Positions 45,001 through 64,000 of a DNA stretch of 64,000 nucleotides are shown piece by piece. A program made the position numbers and the translations under genes. Each line of letters starts with the position of its first letter. Positions within the stretch are counted from its first letter, which is position 1. The notes below the pieces were generated by a model, which was not told the DNA's origin, did not search any database, and worked only from the letters and a program-made list of their open reading frames with translations. This DNA comes from Diprion similis (taxonomy: Eukaryota; Arthropoda; Insecta; Hymenoptera; Diprionidae): contig NC_060107.1 in assembly GCF_021155765.1 (NCBI RefSeq), forward strand, positions 15,672,501-15,736,500. Reading direction: 5' to 3'.

Positions 45001-47040
45001 AGCCTCTGATACTGTCACTGGCTTTGATGGAATGGTCCCTCTTTAGAGGCTGACAATTATTTTTGCAGCAGACGTCACTCTGCCGACTGCCGAAGTTCAA
45101 GCTGTCCTTTTTACTCTCGCAACAGGTGCAACCGTCATTCTCTCTGCTACTTTGCGGTGCGTAACATTCGCTGCTTACCTTGCAGCCGCTGTATTTATCT
45201 TCGCAGTAACTCGAAAAAGACGCATCGCCATTGCCAGTTGGATTCTTGTCGATGCTAGGTGATCCGTTGTCAGTATCAAACTTTCGTCGAGTATAACGGA
45301 ATTCATGCTCTGAATCACGATTATTGTTCTCAGCCCAACTTTGCGCGGTGTATTCTGGGTGAGTTTCGTTAGATGGATTTAGGCTGGAGATGCTGCAGAG
45401 ACAGAAAACGTCGCTGTCATCGCTATTGGAAGGAGCTTGGAGGCACTCGCAATCCGGCGGCAGTTCTTCTTCACTAAAGGCGCGTTTCAAGCTGAGATCT
45501 TTCGGATTTTTTTTCTCTGGGATCAAGTCCTGGATCGTTTTAGAAGACTCGTCACTCGACGAGTAAGCGTAGCTCGTGTTCGTTACTACGGTTGAATTGT
45601 CTGGGCTCGATTCGGAGCTTTTCTTCTTTTGGCCACTGACCTCGTTTCCCTCAGAGCAAATGTAGATGTTGACATTGCCCGTCATTTTTCGATTATCGGT
45701 GTTCAGATGCTTGCTAGGCTTTCGAGGCTTGCTTGTCTTCTTCGCTCTCCGAGGCTTTACCGACTGATTATCTGCCGCCTGGACAATTTGAGGCCATGCA
45801 ACATCCTTTTCACCTTTGCAGATTACTGAGCTGACCGTGCTAGGCTCCGAAGAAGGCTCGCAATCCCTGGTGAAAATTATTTTCAGAACCTTTCAAAGAT
45901 TTGTAAAAATTTCCGAAATATTCTAATAGCTACTAATAAATTTCTAGAAATATGTTCATTTCAATGTAAAAAATTAATGTCAGCAAAGTTAAGGTAAAAC
46001 TTTGATATTTATTTCACAGCTAATGTGTCCATATTTTTTTCGCTTTTTTTTTTAAATTAACTTCATCTTAAAAATTCCTAATTTCTCTCAGAAATCCATC
46101 ACAGTTATTCATAAAATACGCAAAAAAAAAAAAATCAGATTTATCATCAGATTTGTGATACAAAATGAAGTTCTGAAAAATATGAGTTTTCTCCAGAAAT
46201 TGATCCGGTCTTCACCTCTGACTCGACTTGGTTAAAAAAAAGTCAGAAAGACGGAAGCGGAAGAATATAAGTTCCTAGTAAGGAAGAGTAGTCGAAAATT
46301 TTCCAAAAATAATAACTGTCCGAAAATATGGTACATTTCTGAAAAAAATTAAAAACAATTTTTCTTTACCACGGATATGTTTCAGGAAATTTTTGCTGCG
46401 TTGATCTTTGCTGATAATTGCAGCTCCTCTTCAAATTTTTCAAGCCTCCGTTGTCCCCACAAGGGCGGTAAACGCTTCCAGAACCATTCACAGGTCTAAC
46501 GAATGGCATCGCCTGATCAGAATATTGAGTCGAGCTGGTAACGACCTCTTTATTCTTTGCCAAGGGTTCAGCAGGTTTTTGATTTTCCTGCTGCTTTACA
46601 TTGGCAAGATTTTGCACAGCAGCTTTTATTGACTTGCTTATCATTTCGGTGAGCTTGTCGGGATCCGGAAAAGTGTGATTCTCGCATTCGACTGTGCAAT
46701 CATTCTGCGAGCAGCTGCACAGCTGCAGCGTCACATTTTCCCGATTCTCCATTTTTTCAGTACGAATTCCGTCACATTGCGACAAAACTTCGCTGGAACT
46801 GCTAGCGTTACTTCTTTTTGGCGGTTTTTGCGGGCAGCACACATCTTCGGTGCTCGATACCTTTGATTTTATTTCTCGATCGCACTTTACCAAGGATTCG
46901 GAAAGTGGCGAACAAGCTAATCCCCCCAAGGTCTTATCTTGCTTCGATTTTTCACCACACACTTGTTCAATGTTACTGCTTTGGCGACGGAAACTTTTGC
47001 AACACTTAAAAAGCTTGTCCAATCCCATGTTAGCAGACAT
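42065..47040 (-). CDS. Unrecognised large cysteine-motif-repeat protein
   Basis: Four exons in transcript order, 47040-46370, 45866-43608, 43162-42929 and 42218-42065, join in phase to 1,105 codons. The ATG at 47040 is preceded in frame by a TAA, so the start is firm. The N-terminal two thirds are Ser/Lys/Asp/Glu-rich and probably disordered, with scattered CC/CxC pairs. The C-terminal third repeats CxxC-x(4-6)-CxC: CTLCCQAENDCRC, CVYCDERQENCVC, CSYCRMPADVCNC, CNRCEKIPCGC, CRDCLGIGRCKC, CDRCRTTPCRC and a final CYYCKSSPC. I do not recognise the family; the spacing suggests zinc-knuckle-like metal binding or disulfide crosslinking. No signal peptide is seen. The last exon is ambiguous: another donor four bases upstream in the third exon (CCTT|GTAGGT) would put it in a different frame, ending at 42037, but would lose the final Cys. 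Exon 2's donor (AG|GTTCGAT) is weak. Confidence 0.75.
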
Positions 47041-48354
47041 TTTAACCCGTTGTTCCGAGGTTTATGAGCTTATTGACGATACTCTTGAGATTTTCCAATC
47101 ACGTCACGTTTTCGTCCACCATGTTTAGACACTTGTCTTCGCTACAATGAAAAATATGGATCGTAGAGAACGATATAACCTAATCGCTGCTACTAATTGA
47201 ATGTACTTATGTTTAATTATCAATATACGTAGTTAAGTAAATAAATAAAATTCTTTATGCACCAAAATATTTTACGAATTCTTTTTATTTAGCATTTATT
47301 TCTTACTTCAGGAATTTAACCAATTTTAACAATCGCTGGGTACTTTAAGCACATTCTTCTACTTCGCAAAACATTGAATGCATTTGATTGCATTTGTTAA
47401 ATCTCAAGGATCGATTTATCAATTAACAGAGTTAAATTTCCTCCTGTACATAGCAAAAGTCAAGTTGGTTGCATTTTACACTCAATGAACCTAAACAAAA
47501 AATCGTAACTAAAAAGAAAGACGAATGAATAAATAACTAAGTTGTCAAACCTTTGTGAATTCATGACAGGTTGTAAATATGGCAGAAATAAAAGGGTTTT
47601 TCATTCACGACTTCACTCAATGTTGTCATCCGTTTCTTTCTTCGCGCTGTTTGCGGCGCATTACAAGGTTCGTGTTCAGTTTTCCTTTGTGGTTTGTAAA
47701 AAAACAACGACACATTGACTTTCAGGCTATGTTACGCTCTTCTTGATTTTACCGCCGCAAACAGTAATCGTGATTTACTTTTCAAACGGTAGATACGTGT
47801 AGTCTCAATGTAGGTATTGAGGCAATCTTACTTATAAAATTTTGATCAAAGGCGAGTTGATTTTTTTTTTGCGTGTTTAATTATTTTTTTTACGTTAGAG
47901 ATCGGCCATCTTTACAAAACGGTGTCGAAACAACGACAAACGACTGTTTACTGATGATACTATTAGAATTTCTTCTCGGTAAGAAATTAGTAATCATATA
48001 ATGTGTGAACTTTGTTTTTGCGTGTAAATTTCGGCGTTGTAATTTTTCAAAAATATCCTCACCATTACTGGAATCACTCTAGAAAATTTGTCAGCGCTTA
48101 CGAACATATGCAACAAGTTTGATAAGGATTTTTTTTGATATACTGTAACCGTATTTTTCTATGCTGACCCAGAAAAGCGTCTTTTATCGAACAAACGACG
48201 CGACAACGGCTGAAAACTAGATCGAATAATCATGTTCACACAGAATATTGCGCGTTGAACTCATTTTGGTGCGCGTTTGAATGCTTTGCGTTAGATCTTC
48301 CTCGAATTTCATTTCACAATCAACTATTATTGACTGGATCAAAGAGTCTGATTA
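47041..48354. other. Upstream region of the cysteine-motif gene
   Basis: Presumably holds the promoter of the gene starting at 47040. No other gene is supported. Poly-T and AT-rich stretches dominate. Confidence 0.35.
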
Positions 48355-48355
48355 C

Positions 48356-48499
48356 CTCGCGATTAGCGGGGCGTCGAAATATTGTGGCCAAAACTGTGTT
48401 CGCTGCTTTAGCGAAGTTCCTGAAGATCGGAGGTGGTGAAATTTCCGCATCTGCTGTATTTTCACGATTCGTTTCCGGTTCGCTTTTCTTTTCGGATTT
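48356..48499 (-). CDS. Candidate coding exon, minus strand
   Basis: A 144-bp segment lies between a good acceptor (TTTGGTGCAG) and a plausible donor (GAG|GTAATC). The frame KSEKKSEPETNRENTADAE ... IFRNFAKAANTVLATIFRRP has many codons with a purine in first position, as real coding does. A second frame of the same segment is also open. It might be a further 3' exon of the 49.85-52.24 kb gene, but the phase fits only in the less coding-like frame, so the assignment is open. Confidence 0.3.
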
Positions 48500-48612
48500 C
48501 TGCACCAAAGATATAACGCAACAAGAATGTAAATGCCTACATCTTAAATTATATAGTGAATAAAATGTTCGTACACAAATGTGATGCCGATGTCTTCTAT
48601 TCACTCTCTCAG

Positions 48613-48762
48613 TACTCTGCAAGCGACTGCAACAACCACATTTACTTTTCTTCCTGTGACGATTGCACTGTAGAGAGCATGGATCCCGTTCCTGATATGG
48701 AGTTGATGGAAGAAAATTTGGCTCGTACCTATAAGAGACACCGAAAAAAAAACGCTACATGA
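48613..48762 (+). CDS. Candidate terminal coding exon, plus strand
   Basis: A strong pyrimidine tract and acceptor (TTCACTCTCTCAG) lead into a 50-codon frame that begins YSASDCNN, passes FSSCDDCTVESMDPVPDMEL and ends TYKRHRKKNAT before TGA. AATAAG follows about 12 bp later. No matching upstream exon could be fixed, so this is a possible last exon of an unmodelled gene. Confidence 0.3.
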   Translation, partial: YSASDCNNHIYFSSCDDCTVESMDPVPDMELMEENLARTYKRHRKKNAT

Positions 48763-49100
48763 TACAACTTTAATAAGAAATTATTTCCAGATTCACTGTA
48801 ACGTGATCTGACCTCAACAGATAGCGAAAATATCTGGCACAAGCTGAGATAAGTCAAGGAGGTCAAACTTGAGGTTAACAAATATATTTCGGGATTGTTA
48901 TATATATTGAATACGAGACATTATAAAATGCAATAGAAAATGTATTACACAAAACAGCTCGATTTTAATTGAAAAAGCGGTTTTTCCCAACCCATATACC
49001 GATCTTTCTCAACTCAATATAACAAAACAGAACTTTAAATACTTGCGCGGAATTTCCCGTCTCTTTTTATTCGTGTAATTCGGCTGAAACCGAGGTCAAG

Positions 49101-49130
49101 ACGATCAGCTCATCGCCCATTGAGACACCG
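49101..49130 (+). repeat. Copy of a short dispersed repeat (CGATCAGCTGATCG family)
   Basis: ACGATCAGCTCATCGCCCAT then TGAGACACC. The preceding CGGCTGAAACCGAGGTCAAG also resembles the AAACAGAGGCTAATG that precedes the 49755 copy, so the repeat unit extends upstream of the palindrome. Confidence 0.45.
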
Positions 49131-49754
49131 TATAGTTTTAGCCACGCCGAAATTTTTGATCCAAATATCGCGTATATGAATCCAAATTATTTGAATTATT
49201 ATAGTCTCTTCTTTTACTTGCTGTGTAAGATAGCTGTTATTATTTGCGCATGATGCTCTCGGCGTAATCTGAGAATTCCTGCTTTCTACATGAGTATGCA
49301 TGTATGCATACAAAAACTTGCACAATCCGGTAATTCCGCAATTATCGGCAAATACAAGGCTTTAAATCACGAATGAGATGTGAGTTTCTATTGATAAGCA
49401 CTTTGATCAATTATTCTTGAGTACCGAAATAACATTAATAAACTTATCGTAAAATGTAGATGCAAAATTAACATAAAGTAACAGGGCCGTATTTAATTTT
49501 AAAAATCAATTTGACTTATAGTTCAATTGAGCTTGAAGTTGTTGTGGTACATTGCACGATACACGATTAGATATATTCCTGAACACTTCATCTGATGTCA
49601 GAAAACGTAATCTGTTTGATGTAATGATGAAAATTTTTTTCTGATCTGTTTGTCTTTTTTTGCCATCTCAGTTGACTACAATCAGAGTATAAGCGCTTGC
49701 ATGAGGTTTTCGACTCCTTAATATTCATACGATCTAACTAAAACAGAGGCTAAT

Positions 49755-49790
49755 GCGATCAGCTGATCGCGGAACTCGACGCTATATTGC
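49755..49790 (+). repeat. Copy of a short dispersed repeat with perfect 16-bp palindrome
   Basis: GCGATCAGCTGATCGC is a perfect palindrome followed by GGAACTCGACGCTATATTGC. It is the best preserved copy of the family in this window and lies just past the last exon modelled for the neighbouring minus-strand gene. Confidence 0.6.
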
Positions 49791-49849
49791 TCCACCCAGT
49801 TTGAAACCCAATCAAAATATTTAAAAGCAGAAAAGTTAAGATATCGAAC

Positions 49850-52240
49850 CTTGGTGAAATTCCCTGGCTGACGGTGCCACAGACTGGAATTGTCTTATGG
49901 CAGTATTGTCCCTGGGCTAAACTGCAATCATAAAGAATAACGAACATTGAAAAATATATCGTGAAAAAATATTGTCAGCTGGATTGAGTTTCACCTTAAC
50001 GTGGATCCATTTTGTCCATACATGACGAGGCCACAGCAGGCGAGATTTGCATGTGGATACAAGCATTGCTCTGCGTCTTGGTCGTGATAAACGTGATCAA
50101 ACCCTCGAAATGACGGGCTCACGGAGCTACAACGACTCGTATTAACCTCGAATGACAGCCTAGCAGAAAGGTCTCTCTCCGACGGCGAATGTTCTCGATT
50201 TGAGCATTGACGGTTGGGTGAGTTCCGACCAACGAAACCCTCCAAATTCCCATCAGACCGAGTAGTGCTTTTCAAGCTTCTAGAAGATGCACCTTGAGAG
50301 TAAAAACAGCAGTTTTCAGGTTTAAAAATTTCTCAACGTTATTCGACGATCATACAAGCATTGCTGAAGCATTCCTGATTCCAACTTCGCTGACAGTCTA
50401 TGTTTTGAGCCTTCGATCTCCGCTGATATCGCCGCTTCTCGTCTTCTCCGCGCTCATTTGAAATGTTGTATGCATTTGCTTCGGACCCAAAATGGCAGCT
50501 GCGGTCCAAGAATTCACGATCGTAGAACGTTTTGCGATTGCAACCATCGATGGCATTGTCTTTCATTATATTTCGGACAAATTCTTCGTTCCTTAAGGAC
50601 GAATCTTCTTTCTGTTTCACACATTTGCAGTTTTTGCAGACGTATGATTCGGAAGAAGCTACTGACCCATAATTCATGTTCTCAGCCACGTGGGATCTTG
50701 CATTTACGGTGTGGCTATTGTAATGTTGATCTAGTTTAAGGTGGGGAACTTTTTCCCTCGTTCTCGGATTGACAGAAGGTAATTCCCCCTCACTTGATTC
50801 TCTGACAGTCTTGGAATTCTCTTTCTCTTCTTCTCTTTCCGCCATCTCAGCTATAACTTGACCGTCAAAATTCAACACTGCGCTGCGTTGTTTCAATTGT
50901 TTTACTATCATACTTGTGAAGAGCTTGCAATCAACGTCCGTCTCAAATCGATACCTGAAAATAACATCGAATAATACTTAGTAGGACATTATCTGACAAG
51001 AAGAAACGGGCAAAACTGTTTTCGCTGTACCTTAGCAAAGTCTCTTCAAGCTTGGCCAAAACTTCTTCAAAGCTCGGTGTACTTTTAGAATTTTCGGTGA
51101 CTGGCAATGAAGTTTTCTCCTTAATTGTACAATCGGTTATTTTATCCTTGGATTCTGTTTCATTTGTGCACTGTTCTTCTTTCCTAATAGAACATATATT
51201 TGTTGTCGATGAAATTAGCTGCCTGGGACTTAATATTTCCTGAGCACTATAAACCGTTCTACTGTCTGACGCTTGTTCATCTCTTGCAGAGTCTTTTGGA
51301 GTGGCAGCTGATTTTTCCGAATATTCCTTCGAATTGGTGGATTCTTCAGGTTCGACATTTGCACTAGCAGAGATGCGTGATGTTGGATACGCACTGGAGG
51401 TAGGTTGTAGAGAGCTATCACGTCTTATCCTCCTCACAATGTCAACTAAAAATGAGAGTCTCTTCTTTTTTTTCTTCTTCTTGTTTATTTTTAATGGATC
51501 TGCAGTCAAATTAACGGAAATCCGACTTTCTAACGGAGAGTTGGGATCCATATTCGCATTTTTCAGATCATTCTGAAAGCCCTGGAATTGACCTTCGTCT
51601 TGAACATGGTCGATCAAATGGATTGGCTTTCCATCACAGTTGCTTCGAAAATCAGCGTCCGTACAATCGTGGGGTGTTAAAAAATTCTGTCGATACTCGG
51701 AGCCAGGAATTTCACGTTGGTTACTTTCGATTTGATTGTTGTTGTTCTGGTTCTGCGATTCAGATGACTGGATTTTGAATAGATTGGCGTTAAAACTGAA
51801 AGAGTGTAATAATTCAAAATCATCTATGAGTTACACAACTTATATTCCAGACTTTGGGCTAGCTTGACTTGCTTTGCAATCTGTTTGCGGTGATACTCTT
51901 CCGGGAAATACGGCAAGTAAGTGTCATCTAATCTCTTTTCCGGGTTACGATTTCTCCTAAAAAGTCCCGCGCTGCTACGAGGGGTTCGTGATAATTTCGA
52001 CGGTGAATAAACTGGCAAGCTGAGTTGCGGGATGGATTTCGACAAGTTTTCAACTAGGATGGGAATCTGCTGTACAGGAAGTGATTCGGTGCAGTAAATA
52101 TTATAGACTTGTGGAGGAGTGGTGAAGTATTGCTGTTTTTTCATTTTACGGCGTTCCGCGAGTTTCGGCATGATAGCCACGCCTGAAACGAGGATAAATA
52201 ACAGATTAAAGCGGCTTGAAAACGAGAATACTGTATTCAT
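49850..52240 (-). CDS. Unrecognised basic, low-complexity protein
   Basis: Exons in transcript order: 52240-51837, 51795-51031, 50954-50356, 50292-49995 and 49921-49850. Phases match, but the first donor is weak (GTGTAA, or GTTGTG three bases before). The start may be ATG 52240, which gives a hydrophobic N-terminus (FNLLFILVSGVA), or ATG 52171 just after a strong acceptor (CCTCGTTTCAG). Contents include MPKLAERRKMKKQQYFTTPP, a KKKKKKKRLSFLVDIVRRIR basic patch, a Ser/Thr/Glu-rich linker, CKNCKCVKQKEDSSL and a C-terminal region with ANLACCGLVMYG and YCHKTIPVCGTV. If no further exon follows, the frame reads through the last donor (AG|GTTCGAT) to a stop at 49759, using part of a dispersed repeat as coding sequence. 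The 5' end lies only ~190 bp after the stop of the DC-STAMP-domain gene on the same strand. Function unknown. Confidence 0.55.
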
Positions 52241-52431
52241 TTTTCTCTGCAATTGGGATTGCATGTGACAACATGGAGTTGCATTGGGCAACTGGCTGAT
52301 AATTTTAAGTCTACCTTATGCATACCAGAGCCTAGAAAACTTTGTGTAACCTACTGGACGTCCATTTTGTGTGTAATACGTGTGTATTTACTGCCACCAT
52401 AACAGATCAGTTTTTACCTATTCCAGCTCCT

Positions 52432-55400
52432 TCAGTGTGACGTTTCGTTATTGTCCGTAGTATCCTCCTCGTCTTCTTCTCTAGCGATGAATTTACGGCG
52501 TCGATTTTTCCTTCGATAACGATTTAGATCGACAGAGGACATGTCGCTTTGATAATTTTGAGGTTGTGTCTTCTGATTTGGACTCGATTTCGGTACTGAA
52601 ATATCGTTCCTCCGCTGACGACCTTGCTTCGTCCTTTTATTTTCAACATTATTTTGACAGGGTTCTACCCATATTTGTGTAGGTCCGCTGACCCGTCGGG
52701 AAGAACTTGTTTTAGACTTATTCTTCTTCGGCTGACAAGAGAAGTACGTTTAATGCTTGGCGTTTAGGATGTTCAGACGCAAAGGAAAAATTATGAAGCA
52801 TAGCTAAGATCTGTCTGATATATAAAACGGTCAATTACAAATGCATTCGGAAATATCAAAGCCGTGAAACTCCTCAAGCAGGGGTTCACCAAAAATTTTT
52901 AATACATATAAAACAAACGAAAGATCTGAAACAACTTCACCTCATAATTCAAATACTGATGACTGATACCGAGTGGCGAAGTTTTTTAACCACCTACTTT
53001 TGAACCGAAGTTATTAGCGAGATCACTCGTCATTTTTGAAATGGCATCACTCTTTCGTCTTGTGGAAGCGTGAAGGTCAATCACATCAACTGTTGCGTCG
53101 GTCTGCCGTGAGGCAACATTCGTGCTTCGTTGACCACGAATTCTTTTCTTGATCTTCTTTGGCCGTTTCGATAGTTTACGTTGTTCGTACTCGTTCAGGA
53201 CTTGGTTGGAAGCCACTATTTCTTGATGCGACAGCCTGTTTCTTGACTGTGAAAAATTATTATTACGGATAGAATTCTCATTTGGACACAGACGAGAGTC
53301 CTACAAAGCGAAGCAAATCGCTCATTGATGATTATTTCATAGTGCAGATAATAGCTTTCTCTTCAATACTAACGTTTTGACCTCATTTTGATCAAGAACG
53401 CCATTTTTCAACAGGGCGGAAACATAAAATGATTAGTTTGAATTAGCTTTTCTCAAAAAACGCGAAAAAAAGTTTTCTAAATTTCATGTAGTGATGATCA
53501 AGTAAAATATCAACATTTTTTGATATTTGTACCAATGTCCAACCAAAACCTCATTTTTAGCCATCTTAATGTTAGAGTTTACAACTGTTTAGAGGTTCAG
53601 AAACGGAGTTTCAGGTTTTCAAGAAAAACAACTGTGTTACTCACATTTTCCGTAGGGTCATCTCCGCTTGGTTGTGATCGACCAGAAGTAGAGGAAACAG
53701 GAGTTTCGGAAAGTTGTGTATTTTCAACGGCTCGACTCCTGGTTTCTTTCTTTGGAATCAAACTGATCCTGTCATGTTCTTTTAGCTCGAATATCAGTTT
53801 GGGCTTTTGGGAGATGGGCAGAAACCTTCTCAAAATTGGTAACCCCATAAAACCCCTTCGACTATTGTTATTCGGACCTTCCCGTTCGATCTTGCGTGTA
53901 TCTTCAGCCACTGGATGGTCATAAGACTGGGACAGTGGCAAGCTATGCCATTGATCGATGTCTTCACTGGAATTTGTATCCATCCTCGGTTGCGGTGCGT
54001 GTCGCAGGGGTTGTTCAGGAGGAGGAAAACGTTCGTCATTGGAAACGTAGGGGTTAGGACTGAATGATGATATACCGTAATACGGATCCACTCCGTCGGG
54101 ATAATTTCTGGGACTCGGATACCTTTGAGGATATCTAAACATCCCAAACAGGCGATTAGACAGTACACCAATAAATACTGGTCGTAACGAATTGAAAAGT
54201 GAATAGTTACATTTTTTTGTATGGAACAGAAAAAATTCAAAATATCATTTCCAAATTGTACTGTGCGCTTTGAGAACGAGGATGGTATTGGGCAGAACAC
54301 GTGTGAATCGAATGAATTATATTCTCTGTGAGTAAACACCAGGAAAATGTAGATAGAACCGGAGAAAAACGGCAACTCTTTGCCTCACGCTCAAAAAATT
54401 CACGCATAAATCGTTTTGTATAACTTTGTTTTGCTACTGAATCACATTTTGCCCAAAGAACTTGTTTTACTCTCGGATTCCATTTTCCCCCGTGTCCCAT
54501 TCCCCAAATAGTCGTTCAGATCTAAGGTTCCATTTTGCCTTGTCATTTCTTACGACACCGATGTTTTTACCCACGGTTATACTCCAATACACTCTACCTG
54601 CGGTAACAAATTTGAACTGACCTGGCAATCGCTCCTGCCCCATGTGAATTCCTTGTGTCATAAGGTAGAGGGTATGATGGATCATACATTGTCACTTGGT
54701 TCATCGGTTGATCTCCGTAATCCAGCGTGTGATCAACGTTTTGATAGCCATTATCGTACTGTTCTTGATCTTCTCTCTCCTCACAATCAAGTCCTCTGAT
54801 GCCATCAGGTTCCAGTAAATTGCTCACTCGTTGCCTTCGTCCACCTTCTGGGCTCATTCGATGAGGCATCAAGTTGTATTCCTTCTCAAGACCGCGTCCA
54901 CGTCCGTCAAAGGTATGGAATCTATCTCTACACGCAGGAGGCATTCTTCTTTCCGTACTGTATCGATCTTCGCAGGGAGCAGAATCTCCAGAGGCAGAAT
55001 AACCGCCTGGTCTGTAACCTGGAGAAGAGTTTCCTGGAGTTTCCGGTGAACTATGGTCCCCACTTCGATAATATTTGTGTATCTTCACTAGTTGCCTAAG
55101 ATATTCTGGAGATCCTGAAGTATCTCCATGGCAGTGAATTGAGCTGCTTGTAGGTGTCGCTTTTCTGTGTTTACTGGCGAATATTCTACGAGGACTTGTC
55201 TCCTCGTCACTGATGGCACTTCGGTAGGATTCAGGCCCTCTTCTTCGCGAGCTGTCTTCAGCATCAGTGTAATAAGAGCCAAAACGCTTCTGCCGTTCTT
55301 TTTCACGCTTTCGCGGCGACTTTCGATGCTGCTGAGGTTTAGAATTATATTTGTACTTATTCCCACACGAGTCAGGTTGCCGCAATGTATCATAAATCAT

Positions 55401-58400
55401 TGTTAATTCATCCGTGGTTATTAATTCGCTTGTGCTAGTATCGGGTTCGGCGTTTTTAGAATTCTGAATCGGTGACTCTAGTCTTTCCTCACAGAGGTTT
55501 GACGAATCTGTTTGAACTTTACTCGTCGCTGCTTCTAGCAGATCGGTGACCTTTTCATATTCGCCAAATTTCGTCGAAGCCTTTTGTTCGGTGGGAATTT
55601 CATTACCGGAAAAATCAAAAACCTTCATGGAATTGGAGTGCTTCTCTTTACTGGTTATCTCCTTTGATTCTTCCGTCTTCTTTTCCTCCGTCTCAACTTC
55701 AATTTCACGCTGTTTTTTTCCTGCCTCTGCAACCTCCATACGGAGCTTCGGAATTTCCCAATATTTTTTAAAGCTCAACTCAGGTTGATTACCAAACAAC
55801 TGAAGTCCCGTTAATGAATTGTACAATTTGTTTGGCGGTTGCTGGCCAACACTTTCACTTCGTTTCCTCCTTTTTCTCTTTCTTCGAAACTCACGAGGAT
55901 CAGTATTTGTCGTTATTGTTTCTTCAATTACTTCTACGTCTATTATAGTCGAACTAGGCGTAGCCCCTAATTGTCCCTCTTCTAGTTCCAGTCTATTTGG
56001 ACTCCAAGGCCTTTTCACTGCCGACATGTTTCCTACCTTCTCGTCAGAGATGCAAACGTCTATCACTCGTCTTGGTCTTTTTGAGTTTAATTCCAAAGGC
56101 AATTCCTCTTCATCTGTTATTACGAATCGCTTCATACTCTTCTTCGCCTTAACTGTTTAAAACCATAACGAAAAATTCAATCACTACAGTTTCACCACAA
56201 GTTAGTTTGACTTCAAGACTAAATTGTTGGAAAAGAATTTCCGAAAAGGTTCTTTCCGTTTCAGACGGCTTCAGAATGTTTTTCAGGACAAAAGAAGAGA
56301 ATCTGTCTCACTTTTGTCTTCCCCATTCAGGTTCACTTCAAAAGTTTCGGAAGACAGGCCGGTAACGTCGACGAACTGGTCGCTTTCGACTTGTGGAGGT
56401 TCTGGAAAAACTTCGTTACTTCCTTCCTCGATTGTGCTCATATCAAATTCATGCTTGTTATTTGAGCTTCGGGGAACAACATCCAAACTGGAAATAGAAG
56501 ATCCTCTCGAACAAACGCAAATATCCTGAAACAAAGAATAATCGCATAGTTAATTGAAGTTCATCACATATTTTGCTCTCTCGGATAAATCTGCGTACGC
56601 ATTCGTCGTCAGTGCCTCTTATATTCCAAACATTCCGTATGCTCGGTGTCGTTGAGATTGTCTTTGAGCCACTTAGTTTGTTCACGTAACTCCTATCGGT
56701 ACCTTCGCTTCTCGATGTTGATCCATGAATTATCCTTTCGTTGATTTCGTCGTATTTAGTTTCCTCGACGATAGACTTCAAATATCTGAATTTCATCAGT
56801 CATAGTTTTTTCGGGTTTGAAGGTATTTGTTATGTTATTATCTAAAAAGGTTCAAAATTACCTTGGCAACGTTTTCGTTTCAAATTTATTTTCATGTGGA
56901 TATTTGGTGAAAAATTCGCTTGCAATTGTTTTCCCCACAGTGCTTTTCTTGCCAGTTTTTAAACCAACCTTCTTCCTTCTTCTGCGACGATAGTTATTGC
57001 TCCTAGAGTTGGCTTCAGCAAAGACTGAGTCTTCTTCTAAACGTTGATCCTTTTGCGTCAGGTCCATGTTAGGTAAGCAGAGTTCACTCACGGTTGGCAC
57101 GTATTTCCTCGGACTCATATTAAGTTCCACCAAATCGTCAGAACTCGACAGTTTTAGCATCGGTTTACCAGTTTGACTCTTTTCAGGTCGTCTGAAGGCT
57201 GCTACAGGAAATCTCGGCTTCGTATGCATCACGTTTACAATCTTGTCAAAGATAGATGACCCCTTCTTCTCGATGCTGAGTCCAGCACATCGCGGATCAC
57301 ACTGTGATATTTGGGTATATAAAGCCTTAAATCCTCAAAAATACAAGAAAGATCTCCGACGCAGACTTACTCCTTTCCTTGAAAATGGTCTCGATAAAAT
57401 GGCGACGATTTTTCTCACGCGGTTGCGCTTTTTGCTCCTTTTCTTCCGTTTTTTGGGCAATAAACTCTCTTCCTCGTGTCCTTCGCTGACTTCTTCCTGT
57501 ATGATTTCCTCCTCGTCCACCTCTTCGGTCGGTAGGGATTCAGTGTCGGCTATGGAAGGTGATGAAGTAGACTCGGCATCGATTGGTCTTTCCTCTAATC
57601 GCGAATCCTGCAAGTCTTCATTCACTGGACTTTCCTCGTCCGTCGATGAATCGTTAAAAACCTACCGTTGTCATACAATATAGGCGACGAATGGACAATT
57701 TACATTTAAAAATTTGACGGTTTACAGTACAGTATACAAATCGAATTTTATGCTTCAAGGACGAGAGTCAAATCAGCAGGAATAACGATAATAGCTACCT
57801 GGAGGGTGACATCATCTCTAACTTTTTGTGCCTCGATATCTTTGTACGGTTTTCGTTGTTGCGTGACGTCAACATCTCCTGGTGACTCGTCTTGGTAGGC
57901 TTTGGATAAAAGATAAGCAAATTGAATTTCGAGCCGAATTTAAAACAGGAATTAAAATGTAATTACAGTAACTGTAATCTGTCGAAGATGAACTACAGCT
58001 TTCCGACTCGTCGAGCTGTTTTTCTTCTCTCGTTTTCTTTACTAGATGGTCTGTTTCCCTTTTACGTTTTACGCGGTCGGCTACTTTTTCTTTCTCTTCA
58101 AGTTCTTCTTCACCTACAACGTTGGCTGCATCTTCTTCTTCCTCTTCAAGTTCTTCGTCATCTGCAATATCGCCTGCATCTTCTTCTTCTTCGTACTCTT
58201 CTTCATTGACTTCATCATCTTCTTCTTCGCATTCGTCTAAGAGAGCTTTCTCTTCTTCTTCGACCTCTTTCTTCTGTTCCTCTTCAACCTCAGCCTCTTC
58301 GTCTTCTTCTTCTTCTTCTTCTTCTTCTTCTTCTTTTTCTTCTTCGTTTTCTTCTTCTTCTTGTTCTTCTTCTTCTTCTTCTTTTTCTTCTTCGTTTTCT

Positions 58401-61400
58401 TCTTCTTCTTGTTCTTCTTCTCCTTCTTCTTCTTCTTCTTCTTCTTCGTCTTCGTCTTCTTTTTCACCCTTCATTTGTTCCCTTCGCAAAGCATCTTCTC
58501 TCAACTTTTCGATCAGCTTTTGTCCACAGGGTAGCGGCTCCTGACCATCTGAAGAATCTCTGTATAGACATGAGCAATGAGCAAGTTATTTTCAGTGACG
58601 GCATCGTGAGGCATCGATATTGATCTTATACCTTTCCTCGCTGATGTCAGAGAGATCACCGTAATCGATTGGTTCCAAACAAATAGTGCAGCGGTTTTGT
58701 AAATCTGCAAAACACTGGACACAGAATAAGCCTACGCAGGCTGGCTTCGGACATTTTATCAGAGGTTGATCGTCCTGCTCAACGGCCCCACACAAAAGGC
58801 ACACAGCCTTCTCTGCTCCGCAGCAATGCCGCAAGATCGGACAAATCGCCACCAGTCGTTCCCGGAGGGTCACTCTCTCAGTCCTCATCTTATCCGACTT
58901 TGTGAATTTTCTTCGTAGTTGTCGTCTCGCATATTTCATGAAACTACCGCGTGACCTGGGCGTGGATCACGGCGGACGTTTGAGAAAAGGAATGAAAAAG
59001 GTGGAACAGATCTTTCGGTGTTAGTCAAACCTTACACCTCTTTCTTATTTTACTGATTGATGTAGAAAATTGTACTTCGCACGTTTTTCTTCTCCTTGAC
59101 AAAGAAACCTATTCAAATTTTAGGAAATTACAGGTTTTATGATCGTACTTTGAAAAAATTGATAAAATGTGTTAGTATAGAGTTCAGTGAGTGGAGGACA
59201 TTGGTGATTCTACTGTCCGCCACCAGAGACGCTAGCTCCTGCGGAAAAATCACTTACGCTTCGCGTATTTGGGACTCAGGCCCCTGAGACCCCGAATTTC
59301 CAAACGTAAATGGGGTTTTTGTAAAACATATTCTCCCAAAATCAATATTCCATATAATACTATACGATTTATTAATAACAAAACGAACAATACTTACTTT
59401 AACAAATACTAGCATATGTACTAAAATTGAGTCAAGTCCAAAGAACAGGCATCAGTTATATAGAACCCGTTGTTGAATAGCCAAAAATTTTAAACAATAT
59501 AAACCTTTAAACTTGAACCTTAACCAATCCGAATTTAGACGTTGGACACCCATTATCTGAACGTCCTAGACTACGTCACCCCGAAGCTAAACTTATATAA
59601 AAGATGTTTTCTGTCCCTGACTCATCCTTTTATTTACACGTATTCTAGAACTAGCATTCTCCGTTTCACGAAACACAATACCGACTCTTTTCGGGGCCGA
59701 TCAATCAACCCCTGCCTGAGTTTTCATGAGTAATGTACATTAGTTCAGTCATAACCTCAAAATCTAATGAACCGCTGCCGCGACTATAGGTATATTTAAA
59801 GTGTTTCTGTCAAATTTCCAAACTTTTCTTGATAGTAAAGTTGTTCCAAGTTGTTTCTTTGCTCGAGAGAAGAAGAGAAGCGAAATACGACTTGATGGAT
59901 ATATCAGTAAGATAGAAATTTGAACCAGGACACCACAGACCTGATTATGTGATTGTAGAGCCAGACGGCCCTTTGCCTCGCACGATCTGGATGATAGTAG
60001 CACATCACAACGTGCCTTAGCCTCAATCCGTAGGGCTCGAAAATGGTCATGATCCAGCAAAGAAATATCAGTGACATAATTTGCGTGTATCTGTCTAAAT
60101 CGGGGGGAATTGGGTCTGGCAAGCACGGCATGGTGTCCATGTTGATCTGAGTCCCCTTGGGTGAAAACGTTCGCACAATACTTCGATACAAATCCGCCAG
60201 AAACCCGGTTCCCGACACGTATACTCCCACAGAATTCGGTGTTTCGACCTGCAGGTTAAAACGACATGGTTTTAGGGCAACATGGCATCACATCGGACAA
60301 TCAGCTGATCGTTTAGACTAATTTAATAAACATGAAGGCACGGAATACTTCGTGCAAGCTGATAGAGTCTCGTTTTATGACGTTGAGTGCAGATGCAGGG
60401 TGTAATACGCAGTGAAGAATATTATGTCACTAGTGCTAAAAGTAGGCGATATCTGAACGAGTGGGGCTTGCGGGACGAGCCAACAACGAGTATTATAATC
60501 ACACAAGTCAGATATCACCTATCCAGAAGTGCGATACATGATACATGATATTTATGGTAAGACCTGCACGGAAAGTTCAATTCGAGAAACACCGAAGGTG
60601 TCACTTACGGCGCGTAAAATTAAGGTTAGGTAACTCACGCTCAGTGACGCAGTCACTAAGAGTGCGTGAAATTGAGTTATTTGCAAATGCACGTGCACTA
60701 AAAATAGGCCTAAAGTCAACAGTAGAACATTTCTCATGTGTGCATGCGCCACCTTTTTATTTCCACAATGTTAGGAAAATAGGTGCTTAATTTTAAAACC
60801 ACTTCAAATTTAATGCAGCACCAAAATGGTGGGTAGAATCGGTAAAGTACTTTCCCACATCGCTTACCTTCGACTGGAATCGACCGTGATATCGTATTGT
60901 GCTGAGAACCCAGTATAAACTGTAGTCTGTCATCATGTGGATTCCGAGTTTGAAGGTCATGAGGCACAAAAAAACTGCCGACTTGGTAAGCTTGACCTTT
61001 TCACTCTTAATTAGAATTATGGATGTCAGAGGTATGTACTTGTTTCTTTCTCTTCGATTTAACGGCAGTACCGTCTCCTTATCAAGTCTCGCTCTTCTCA
61101 GATCTATTTCTCGCAGGTCATCAGTGAGATAGCGATTGTCAAATCTCTCACTTGTCAACCACTTGTTTCGATAATATATTACTCTATAAAAACAAATAAA
61201 CATTCTGTCACGTGCTGATAAAATGATTTTTCACAATAATTATAATGGTTATACTCCAGAAAATATCGAAATATTGAAAGTTTGAAAAATGTTTTAGACA
61301 ATCCTGACCTTCGAAAAAAATCTTTTAAAGTATTAATTAAGTAATAATTTCTTCAATTATCAGAGAAAACTTTTTTTTATACCGGAACAGTATCACTAAA

Positions 61401-63327
61401 ATTTCTGGTAATTTTCTAAGAATAAATCTTGCTTCCTTAAAAATTTCCCACCGGTCTAAAATTGCCGCGAATTCTAAAACTGTGGATTACCACAATTTTT
61501 TTTGTAGGAATTCGTACTGTCTTAAGAAAATCATAGAGTTCATGAAAAGTTATACTTTTCAATGAGATTCTTAGAATACTGCGAGAAAAAAAGTATACGT
61601 TGTATGGATCCGAAATTGTAATTATCTTTCATAGAAAATTGTGTATAATCTCAATTTTTTGTGGAAACTGGTATTTTTTTTTACAAAACTCCACGAGTTT
61701 TTACGAAAAGAAATTAATTTTTAGTGCGTCGGAAATTGTAATTATTTGTTACAGAAAATTGTAGATTTATATCATTTTTATCATCATTTATGACGATTCC
61801 CTACGATTTTCCAATATTCCCTACAATTTGGCACGAACTGCAATTTATCGTAGTTTGGCGTAGAAATTATTTTCACCATGGCATGCCCACATTAAAGATT
61901 CCAATAGCAAAACTCATTTTCCTTTGTGGTAAACTTAGATATTCTTTTTTAAGTATACAGAGATTTATAAAAATGGTATAATATTACCTAAGCATCATGA
62001 ACAGGAAAAACAAACTCGTCACGAGACTCATCCAATCAAAAACGGTCAAGAATCTATCTGTTCTAGATCTTATCTCCGTCACAATTCCTGTGGCAACTTC
62101 GTCAATACTTTTACTCTGGTTCGTTTCAAAATGGAAGGAGTGTGAAAATTTAACCTTCACATAAAACATCGCTTTCACGTGCTTCGTAAACTTGTTGATC
62201 CCTGAAAAGATGCAGTTCTGGATTATTTACAGGAAAAACTCTTGTTAAACGAACATTTCCAATTTCAAGCACAGTTTGCTGCATAATAGGTACTTGGAGC
62301 AGAAAAATGTCCAATTACTTTTCCTCACTACATCGACGATGCTGTCCGAGATGAACAACACCAGCATGCAGATTATGTCAAAGGGTTTTACTATCCAACA
62401 TAGCAGACCTGCAACGTATGCCAAGTTGCATATCGCGCCAAAAAAAGGTCCAAGCGAAGCTTTGCAATCGGCCACAGCTCCGTCAAACACCTTTTCGCAC
62501 CGCTCAAAAGGTGTGCCCAGTTTTTTGTTGCATATATTCATTATGCTGCCGAGCCATTGAAATACGGCTTTGATTACCTTAACTGAAATTAGAAAATCAT
62601 TGAATTTTTCTTATTCAATTCTAAAACATTTAATTGACCACTTTTGATCCTGATTCTATCAAGTGAATAAATGAATAGATTTTCACAAAACCATTTTTAC
62701 TTTCGATCTGCCTTCGATATTTTTCAACCAATTTGTTGAAAAATGTTGAATAAAAAAACTTTTTCGTTACTAATCGATGAAAATTCAATATTAGTTTTTC
62801 AGCCTGATCTTAAATAAGTCGATATACACCAAGTAACAGCATTGAAACTCACGTATGCTTAGCACGATTCTTTTTACAGCTAATAAAGCCCGTTTGATTT
62901 TTTTTATGACTTTTTTTAACGATTTCATAACTTTAGCTATCGCATCTCGTAGAGCATAGAATGGTTCTTTAATCAGATCAACGATAGCTCTTACCGCAGC
63001 TTTCAGTTTTTCCTAAAAAACGTATACACATGAGATAAAAATATGTGCGGTATTTTTTTTATAGTACATTGCATTACGAAAACATCACAGGAATTTTTGT
63101 TTTTTTATTACTATTTTTCCCCGTTCTTCTGCAAAACAAGTTGTGTAAGTAATTTAAAACCATAATTATTTATTACTTGTCCGCAGGCCAGCGATTCCGA
63201 TAAAACACCCACGTTGTGTAAGGTATTTTTTGCTGGACCAGTTAATGCCAGTATGAAAGCGTAGGCCATAAGGGCTTGGCGTCCACGTTTCGAGAAGAAT
63301 TGCGGCAGGAGTAGGAACACTACGCAT
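52432..63327 (-). CDS. DC-STAMP-domain/RING protein (DCST1/DCST2/Sneaky family) with long C-terminal tail; 5' end outside window
   Basis: Core exons: 63327-63177, 63012-62853, 62582-62319, 62201-61988, 61183-60868, 60248-59941 and 58943-58632, in phase, ~575 residues. Family marks: PQFFSKRGRQALMAYAFILA with TGPAKNTLHNVGVLSESLAC; a Lys-rich amphipathic exon; FERCEKVFDGAVADC; membrane segments (CNLAYVAGLLCWIV; SLVTSLFFLFMML; IMSLIFLCWIMTIFEPYG); CLPDPIPPDLDRY; AVWLYNHIIR; then an eight-cysteine RING-like end (CLLC, KCPKPAC, CVQC, CTICLEPIDYGDLSDISEE). Relatives are sperm membrane proteins acting at fertilisation (Drosophila Sneaky, mammalian DCST1/2). Unusually, the frame then continues in phase through exons 58559-57967, 57899-57799, 57661-57371, 57301-56862, 56785-56599, 56525-56312, 56152-54622, 54134-53645, 53300-52998 and 52731-52432 (TGA), adding ~1,480 low-complexity residues. 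N-terminal exons lie beyond 64000. The tail could be an alternative transcript or part of another gene, but each junction tested joins open frame to open frame. Confidence 0.82.
58085..58480 (-). repeat. Coding GAA/GAG microsatellite (Glu/Asp run) in the DCST-like tail
   Basis: The plus strand is a nearly pure TCT/TTC tract, read on the minus strand as long runs of Glu broken by Asp, Gly, Gln and Asn. It is in frame with the exon 58559-57967 that follows the RING exon. The antisense Ser-rich and Lys-rich open frames are shadows. Confidence 0.9.
58944..59940. other. Intron before the RING exon of the DCST-like gene
   Basis: About 1 kb without exon signals. The transcript passes through it from the exon ending at 59941 (donor GTCTGT, weak) to the RING exon starting at 58943 (acceptor CGGTAG). 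No repeat was recognised. Confidence 0.5.
60280..60312 (-). repeat. Copy of a short dispersed repeat (CGATCAGCTGATCG family)
   Basis: On the minus strand, CGATCAGCTGATTGTCCGAT then GTGATGCCATGTT. It lies in an intron of the DCST-like gene, about 30 bp from an exon. Confidence 0.5.
61184..61987. other. AT-rich intron of the DCST-like gene
   Basis: Contains two diverged direct copies of GAAATTGTAATTAT...AGAAAATTGT (61609 and 61731) and many poly-T/poly-A tracts. No coding sequence is seen. Confidence 0.5.
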
Positions 63328-64000
63328 CTGTCATAAATAGCAGATGTCAATGTTAAATTATAGTTCCAACCGTTAAGATACTGAGTTCTGTATTGTGTTC
63401 ATACCATCCTCTGATCACTTATCAAAGCAATGGTCTTTACTTCTAGTTTACCAGTTGGAAAATATCTGGTACAACAAATTTCTGTAAAATCTTTGTCAAG
63501 TTGTCAAAAGTGTTCGGAGTACCTGACAGTAATCGGAATAAAATCAGAGATATTCATAATATCAGATCCTGAAGGGAGTGTAATAAATTATTTCAAATTA
63601 ACAAGACACCTTATGTATAGACTATCGGAGATATTTTCCCCACCAGCAACACTCTTGAAAAGTGATGTAAACAGAATAAATACTTGATACTATTGATTCT
63701 TCAACTTATAAGACGCCATCTTGTGAGAGTCAATATAGCGCAGTAGCCAATGTTCGCATTTGATTCTAAAAGTCGTTTTTTTTTAAACAAATTTCGATTT
63801 ACATTGACTTAATGTCACAAAATGGAGGTTTCACAGCTCTCACGATGTTTTGTGTGCATTGGTATTCAGAAAATTTGACTAAAGCGATCAGCTGTTAGTC
63901 ACGATCGACGCCATGCTGCCATCAGCACGCCAGGATCAAAGATCCCAATACCAGGGGAAAAATATGGTTGGAATACCTGACACGGTTGGAAAACGCCAAG
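63328..64000. other. Right edge: intron or 5' flank of the DCST-like gene
   Basis: The first exon in view (63327-63177) begins inside a codon with a good acceptor (TTATGACAG), so upstream exons must exist. None could be found in the remaining 670 bp. GACGCCATCTTG at 63711 and the repeat copy at 63884 show transposon-derived content. Confidence 0.5.
63884..63920 (+). repeat. Copy of a short dispersed repeat (CGATCAGCTGATCG family)
   Basis: GCGATCAGCTGTTAGTCACG then ATCGACGCCATGCTGCC. Closest in layout to the reversed copy at 4620, which also has CACGAT between the palindrome and the GCCATATTG block. Confidence 0.55.

Follow-up and report, generated by a model that had tools for sequence, protein, structure and literature searches.

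A DC-STAMP/RING-type gene of Diprion similis with a probable long disordered C-terminal extension after the RING

Analysis of a 64,000-nucleotide stretch of the Diprion similis genome (assembly GCF_021155765.1, contig NC_060107.1, positions 15,672,501 to 15,736,500; hereafter the window, whose own numbering is used throughout) pointed to a minus-strand gene for a DC-STAMP-type protein that probably carries a long disordered extension at its C-terminus, joined by splicing immediately behind the RING-like motif. The gene was rebuilt from sequence alone, and searches covered a genome of 269 Mb in 60 contigs. Its core comprises 720 residues (a start exon and exons c0 to c7). The extension, here termed the tail, is encoded by ten exons (t1 to t10) in one open frame of 1,483 residues, whose only stop is the terminal TGA at 52432. 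Core and tail together amount to 2,203 residues.

Gene structure

The exons of the rebuilt gene and the intron between core and tail are, in the order of transcription:

64865-64717 in coordinates extended beyond the window (L006 1366-1218), minus strand: start exon, ATG at 64865, 49 residues
64252-63977, minus strand: core exon c0, with only its last 24 bases (63977..64000) inside the window; in phase with c1
63177..63327, minus strand: core exon c1, opening at an acceptor (63327) with the frame CVVFLLLPQFF; the top-scoring donor, 63213, is in phase too
62853..63012, minus strand: core exon c2
62319..62582, minus strand: core exon c3, carrying six ectodomain cysteines 9-11 residues apart
61988..62201, minus strand: core exon c4
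60868..61183, minus strand: core exon c5, DC_STAMP domain (first half)
59941..60248, minus strand: core exon c6, DC_STAMP domain (second half)
58632..58955, minus strand: core exon c7 (RING exon), eight-cysteine RING-like motif
58560..58631, minus strand: RING-to-tail intron, 72 bases; weak donor AAG/GTATAA (slash at the exon end), acceptor CTATACAG at the 95th percentile
57967..58559, minus strand: tail exon t1, acidic; contains a GAA array at 58296-58465 and, at 58084-58189, a repeat of 48 bases
57799..57899, minus strand: tail exon t2
57371..57661, minus strand: tail exon t3; alternative acceptor 57607
56862..57301, minus strand: tail exon t4
56599..56785, minus strand: tail exon t5; weak donor TGC/GTACGC
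56312..56525, minus strand: tail exon t6
54622..56152, minus strand: tail exon t7, the largest tail exon
53645..54134, minus strand: tail exon t8; alternative acceptors 54107 and 54059; least certain by the order-3 and order-4 coding scores
52998..53300, minus strand: tail exon t9
52432..52731, minus strand: tail exon t10, ending in TGA 52434-52432

The original prediction had placed seven core exons between 63327 and 58632. Exons c1 to c7 held up, while the outer limit did not: position 63327 is an acceptor preceded by two earlier exons (c0 was absent from the earlier list), and the RING exon fits better from 58955 than from the predicted 58943, because the alignment to a paralogue described below is ungapped across the c6-c7 junction with 58955. 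An exon-chain program placed the start codon at 64865 in seven of its ten runs. The N-terminus of the gene lies outside the window, so it is invisible from the window alone.

Junction of the RING exon and the tail

It had been predicted that the RING exon joins in frame to an acidic exon, followed by further exons with phases 1,0,0,2,0,1,2,0,0 that would add about 1,480 residues. The chain was reproduced with 1,483 residues and no internal stop, the junction having phase 2 and the subsequent introns the phases given, and the join scored above every control. The score used, joined-minus-split, is the difference between a joined and a split gene parse, with artificial gene pairs as controls. At the RING/tail junction it was 15.9, a value reached by none of 120 artificial pairs (mean 2.0, maximum 10.2). 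A cleaner training set gave 15.5 (control maximum 12.3) and 16.7 (control maximum 12.6) in two settings, in each of which none of 200 controls came as high. On the seven core junctions, where it ranged from 0 to 5.4, the measure was uninformative because a short core segment by itself scores too low to offset the cost of a start codon.

The sequence around the junction was consistent with the join. The original prediction had named, as an observation that would speak against it, transcripts ending just after the RING exon, for example at an in-frame TGA reached by reading through the donor at 58632, with a separate promoter for the downstream exons; this codon is present at 58594-58592, but the read-through sequence was not coding-like (−9.0 bits). 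Within t1, the 28 codons that precede the first ATG were coding-like (+7.5 bits), with another frame there scoring +5.3. Four other tail introns span 67-76 bases, similar to the 72 bases of the junction intron. On the minus strand, no AATAAA was found from the RING exon down to 56890, which falls inside t4.

Several results weigh against this reading. The junction donor is weak, at the 90th percentile of all GT in the scanned strand, and an out-of-phase GT at 58659 outscores it (58631). When the best pair of splice sites was chosen blind to phase, with search ranges set around the model exons, the pairs were in phase at all seven core junctions and at nine of the ten tail junctions (16 of 17 overall), and the RING-to-tail junction was the sole exception. 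The exon-chain program joined RING and tail in 10 of 10 runs; however, it also joined artificial neighbours in 96 of 120 runs at distances of 72-300 bases (33 of 120 at 300-1000 bases), and it respected a known gene boundary at the paralogous locus in two of five runs. Since so many artificial neighbours at short distance were joined as well, its parses were not counted as evidence for the join. Taken together, direct splicing of the RING exon to the tail appears quite likely from the sequence, although it is unproven.

Assignment to the DC-STAMP family

In the available part of the SPE-42 study, SPE-42 and its homologues are described as having six cysteines 9-13 apart in the ectodomain, a DC-STAMP domain and an eight-cysteine RING in the cytosolic C-terminal region, with the RING near the C-terminus in the homologues of all species that its authors examined (PMC3053230). 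The core had been predicted to be of the DCST1/DCST2/Sneaky type, and the results agreed: the Pfam model DC_STAMP (PF07782) matched it over the full length of the profile (1-191 of 191) with an expectation value (E) of 6.7e-62, the six ectodomain cysteines are separated by gaps of 10, 10, 11, 9 and 9, and c7 contains the RING-like motif C-x2-C-x12-C-x4-C-x4-C-x2-C-x7-C-x2-C, which has C4C4 spacing and aligned to the paralogue. For the five or six transmembrane helices typical of the family, hydropathy was the measure used; it exceeded 1.4 in several stretches of the core.

The assignment of the RING met with two contrary results: no Pfam model matched the RING exon at E up to 1, and an AlphaFold model of this exon alone had a predicted local distance difference test (pLDDT) score of 56, too poor to use. 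A comparison of the core with solved structures returned three matches, none of them meaningful (best E 0.13). The position of the RING would also depart from the family pattern, as 1,483 residues would follow it if the join is real. As judged from its sequence, the protein's membership rests on the DC_STAMP domain, the six cysteines and the RING motif, and the long post-RING end is treated as a variant feature.

The DC-STAMP profile search of the genome gave four matches at two loci, with nine candidates scored; one locus is the present gene and the other lies on contig C2:

L005 5630-3044 (G000:C2, ~20.607 Mb), minus strand: second DC-STAMP gene (paralogue), DC-STAMP match

The two genes share 28% identity over 198 columns, covering the RING and the latter part (second half) of DC_STAMP, and have the same cysteine spacing pattern. 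In the paralogue, the stop follows in the same exon 17 residues past the last RING cysteine, whereas in the present gene the donor of c7 lies 15 residues past the corresponding cysteine and the tail follows. The next gene after the paralogue begins at about 2309 in L005 and is presumably a GMC oxidoreductase, judging by the look of its sequence.

Properties of the tail

The coding character of the tail was assessed with models trained on other open reading frames (ORFs) of this genome, namely 22 mechanically defined ORFs of at least 200 residues, some of them mobile-element-like. The cleaner set comprised 18 ORFs, four of the 22 having been dropped, and gave results of the same kind; one repetitive ORF (L027) was retained throughout, and one ORF from L005 and another antisense to a 774-residue frame (see below) were present until the cleaning. 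With the order-2 model, the frame of the gene model was best and positive in all ten tail exons. It was best in 10 of 10 with the order-3 model as well, where the score of t8 was negative. The order-4 model, whose training set included the core of this same gene, favoured it in nine of ten (t8 lost by 0.6 bit), with negative scores in four of the ten. In the phase-blind search, the best pairs at c1-c2, t2-t3 and t7-t8 used a site other than that of the model and were in phase too.

A genome search with t2-t10 (t1 was left out of the query) returned nine matches among 10 candidates scored, all at this locus. No retrocopy or paralogue from which the splicing of the tail could be read was found among the candidates scored.

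All 25 blocks of 60 residues into which the tail was divided fell on the disordered side of the charge-hydropathy line, and no hydrophobic stretch was found in them. The tail starts acidic, with a net charge of −40 in residues 61-120, and basic clusters occur at tail residues 165, 302, 434, 699, 1328 and 1457. It had been described beforehand as low-complexity throughout. This applied to approximately the first 180 residues, the three of 25 blocks (residues 1-180) with a block entropy below 3.1 bits; the remainder is disordered but ordinary in composition. The trinucleotide repeat predicted in the acidic exon was found as a GAA array at 58296-58465 (84% matches, with at most 11 uninterrupted copies), and GAA accounts for 79 of the 89 glutamate codons of t1. 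Beside this array, t1 contains a 48-base tandem repeat (58084-58189; 2.2 copies, 84% matches) whose unit is a whole number of codons.

End of the tail and alternative explanations

Downstream of t10, coding exons continue on the same strand, either as more of the tail or as a gene of their own:

48320..52182, minus strand: downstream coding exons d1 to d6, ~820 residues, rich in Ser, Asn and Arg with Cys-rich patches; stop TGA 48322-48320

Their model frame was best in all six exons, with a negative score for d6, and a genome search with d1-d6 matched only this locus among the candidates scored. An initial model of these exons placed an intron of 44 bases between d1 and d2, a length too small to be credible. 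As modelled, t10 does not lead into d1 in frame. A donor (TAG/GTAAAA) lies 14 bases past the TGA of t10, giving an exon end at 52418, and 235 bases past this the acceptor of d1 ranks at the 99.8th percentile. Spliced instead through 53300-52994, 52510-52418, 52182-51869 and 51767-51031, the chain stays open over 2,945 residues and meets a stop only at its end. The stop predicted at 52432 is thus present in frame but insecure as the end of the gene: the coding exons that extend to 48320 can be attached in frame, a join whose support is not significant. On this sequence, the protein may end at 52432 or continue past it.

A hydrophobic-basic motif that seemed by eye to be common to the tail and the downstream exons was rejected: aligning the tail without t1 to the downstream protein gave a score of 56, reached by 182 of 200 window-shuffled controls. 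Among the best six exon pairs shown, from up to 105 pairs, two were just above the maximum of their own 100 shuffles (33 vs. 31 and 49 vs. 48). Farther along the minus strand, the next open frames (47061-43568) encode 231 and 774 polar residues, the larger being Cys-rich with CxC and CCxC patches; Pfam models gave no family over the cut-off for these frames. The exon-chain program started a gene at 47040 in three of five runs, running to 42065 or beyond.

Four alternatives to a single gene ending at 52432 were weighed. A longer tail, in which t10 is skipped or shortened, the TGA at 52432 remains unused and the frame continues through d1-d6 to 48320, is quite plausible, at somewhat less than an even chance. 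The open chain of 2,945 residues, the strong d1 acceptor, the donor just past the TGA and the consistently best frame in d1-d6 all speak for it, as does the +1 frame at the end of t10, which outscores the modelled frame there (+6.7 vs. −2.9 bits). The exon-chain program also passed through in 10 of 10 runs with nine parameter sets, yet this program over-joins. The joined-minus-split scores for the continuation were 7.1, 6.8 and 5.0, values reached by 14, 16 and 28 of 150 controls, respectively, two of the required sites are poor (the 51869 donor at the 59th percentile, the 52510 acceptor at the 75th), and order-4 windows over t10 favoured the stop frame in seven of nine. Alternatively, two genes may lie here, the DCST gene ending by donor read-through at TGA 58594-58592 and the tail belonging to a separate gene with its own start (e.g. 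the first ATG in t1) and a promoter in the RING exon or in the intron before it. The weak junction donor and the short ends of the paralogue and of SPE-42 agree with this, and the frames from ~47040 look like a disordered-protein gene too, which would mean that such genes may sit side by side in this region. We nevertheless consider two genes unlikely, given the non-coding character of the read-through, the coding character of t1 ahead of its first ATG, the joined-minus-split score that no control reached, the lack of AATAAA until 56890 and the mere 72 bases between the RING exon and t1.

Both forms could also be made, a short RING-ending isoform by intron retention alongside the long-tailed one. 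The weak donor leaves room for retention and the in-frame TGA ends 40 bases into the intron, but positive evidence is lacking and the read-through peptide is not coding-like, which makes this quite unlikely. That the tail is an assembly misjoin or duplication, or the coding sequence of a mobile element, would be very surprising: no supporting point was found, all matches for t2-t10 and the downstream exons lie at this locus, the tail search brought no Pfam match, and the coding frame is continuous over ten exons. The reading preferred here, which we consider likely, is a DC-STAMP-type protein with a long disordered C-terminal extension spliced on after the RING.

Comparison with known proteins and possible function

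DCST1, DCST2 and Sneaky proteins total roughly 700 residues. Vertebrate DCST1/DCST2 and Drosophila Sneaky share with the present protein the DC_STAMP domain, a presumably multi-pass core and RING-like cysteines in the C-terminal region; according to the text available from these sources, the RING is located in the C-terminus there, in contrast to the at least 1,483 residues that would follow it here (PMC8989947, PMC8055269). C. elegans SPE-42 resembles it in the six ectodomain cysteines 9-13 apart, the C4C4 RING and a separate, divergent end encoded by a final exon past the RING, but that exon encodes 29 residues (30 in C. briggsae) instead of ten exons and 1,483 residues, as far as the accessible portion of the paper reports (PMC3053230). 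The same portion states that the post-RING end differs strongly between C. elegans and C. briggsae and that these differences do not account for the failure of the C. briggsae protein to substitute for SPE-42 (PMC3053230). With its last exon, SPE-42 provides a precedent for free divergence of the sequence behind the RING. The expectation that a tail more than twice its core would be unusual was confirmed within these comparisons, with 1,483 residues on a core of 720 against 17 residues after the RING in the paralogue and, in the SPE-42 text at hand, 29 residues (PMC3053230).

Family members are described, in the parts of the studies available, as membrane proteins of sperm with an intracellular C-terminus, on which fertilisation depends in mice, fish, worms and flies (PMC8055269, PMC8989947, PMC3053230). 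The core would be expected to act as it does in DCST, Sneaky and SPE-42, crossing the sperm membrane several times and placing the RING and the C-terminus on the cytosolic side. Given the join, and if this topology is kept here, the tail would then probably extend into the cytosol, where family C-termini lie, as a flexible arm of no fewer than 1,483 residues. An acidic block followed by separate basic clusters would most simply suit a tether or scaffold holding partners next to the membrane, possibly the cytoskeleton, the nuclear or acrosomal matrix, or RING substrates. This role, a guess from composition, is rather doubtful; a Pfam search of the tail matched no family.

A bolder and rather doubtful interpretation is that a gamete-fusion protein absorbed a neighbouring disordered-protein gene, giving one transcript for a DCST of 2,203 to 2,945 residues, with a tail two to three times the core that reaches 52432 or even 48320 and that arose in this lineage, adding to the fusion machinery a new arm in the cytosol. 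A literature search by title and start of abstract, with most subscription journals outside its scope, brought up no report of a DCST protein with a long tail. Animal protein collections may contain automatic annotations of such proteins.

Implications

DCST proteins are presented, in the part of the source available, as sperm factors common to worms, flies and vertebrates (PMC8989947). Loci of this sort call for caution in annotation, since gene-prediction programs may fuse them or cut them. If the proposed structure is true, this gene would be a natural DCST with a giant cytosolic arm, implying that the post-RING end can carry large added modules, and truncation of the tail would provide a handle on what binds after the RING.

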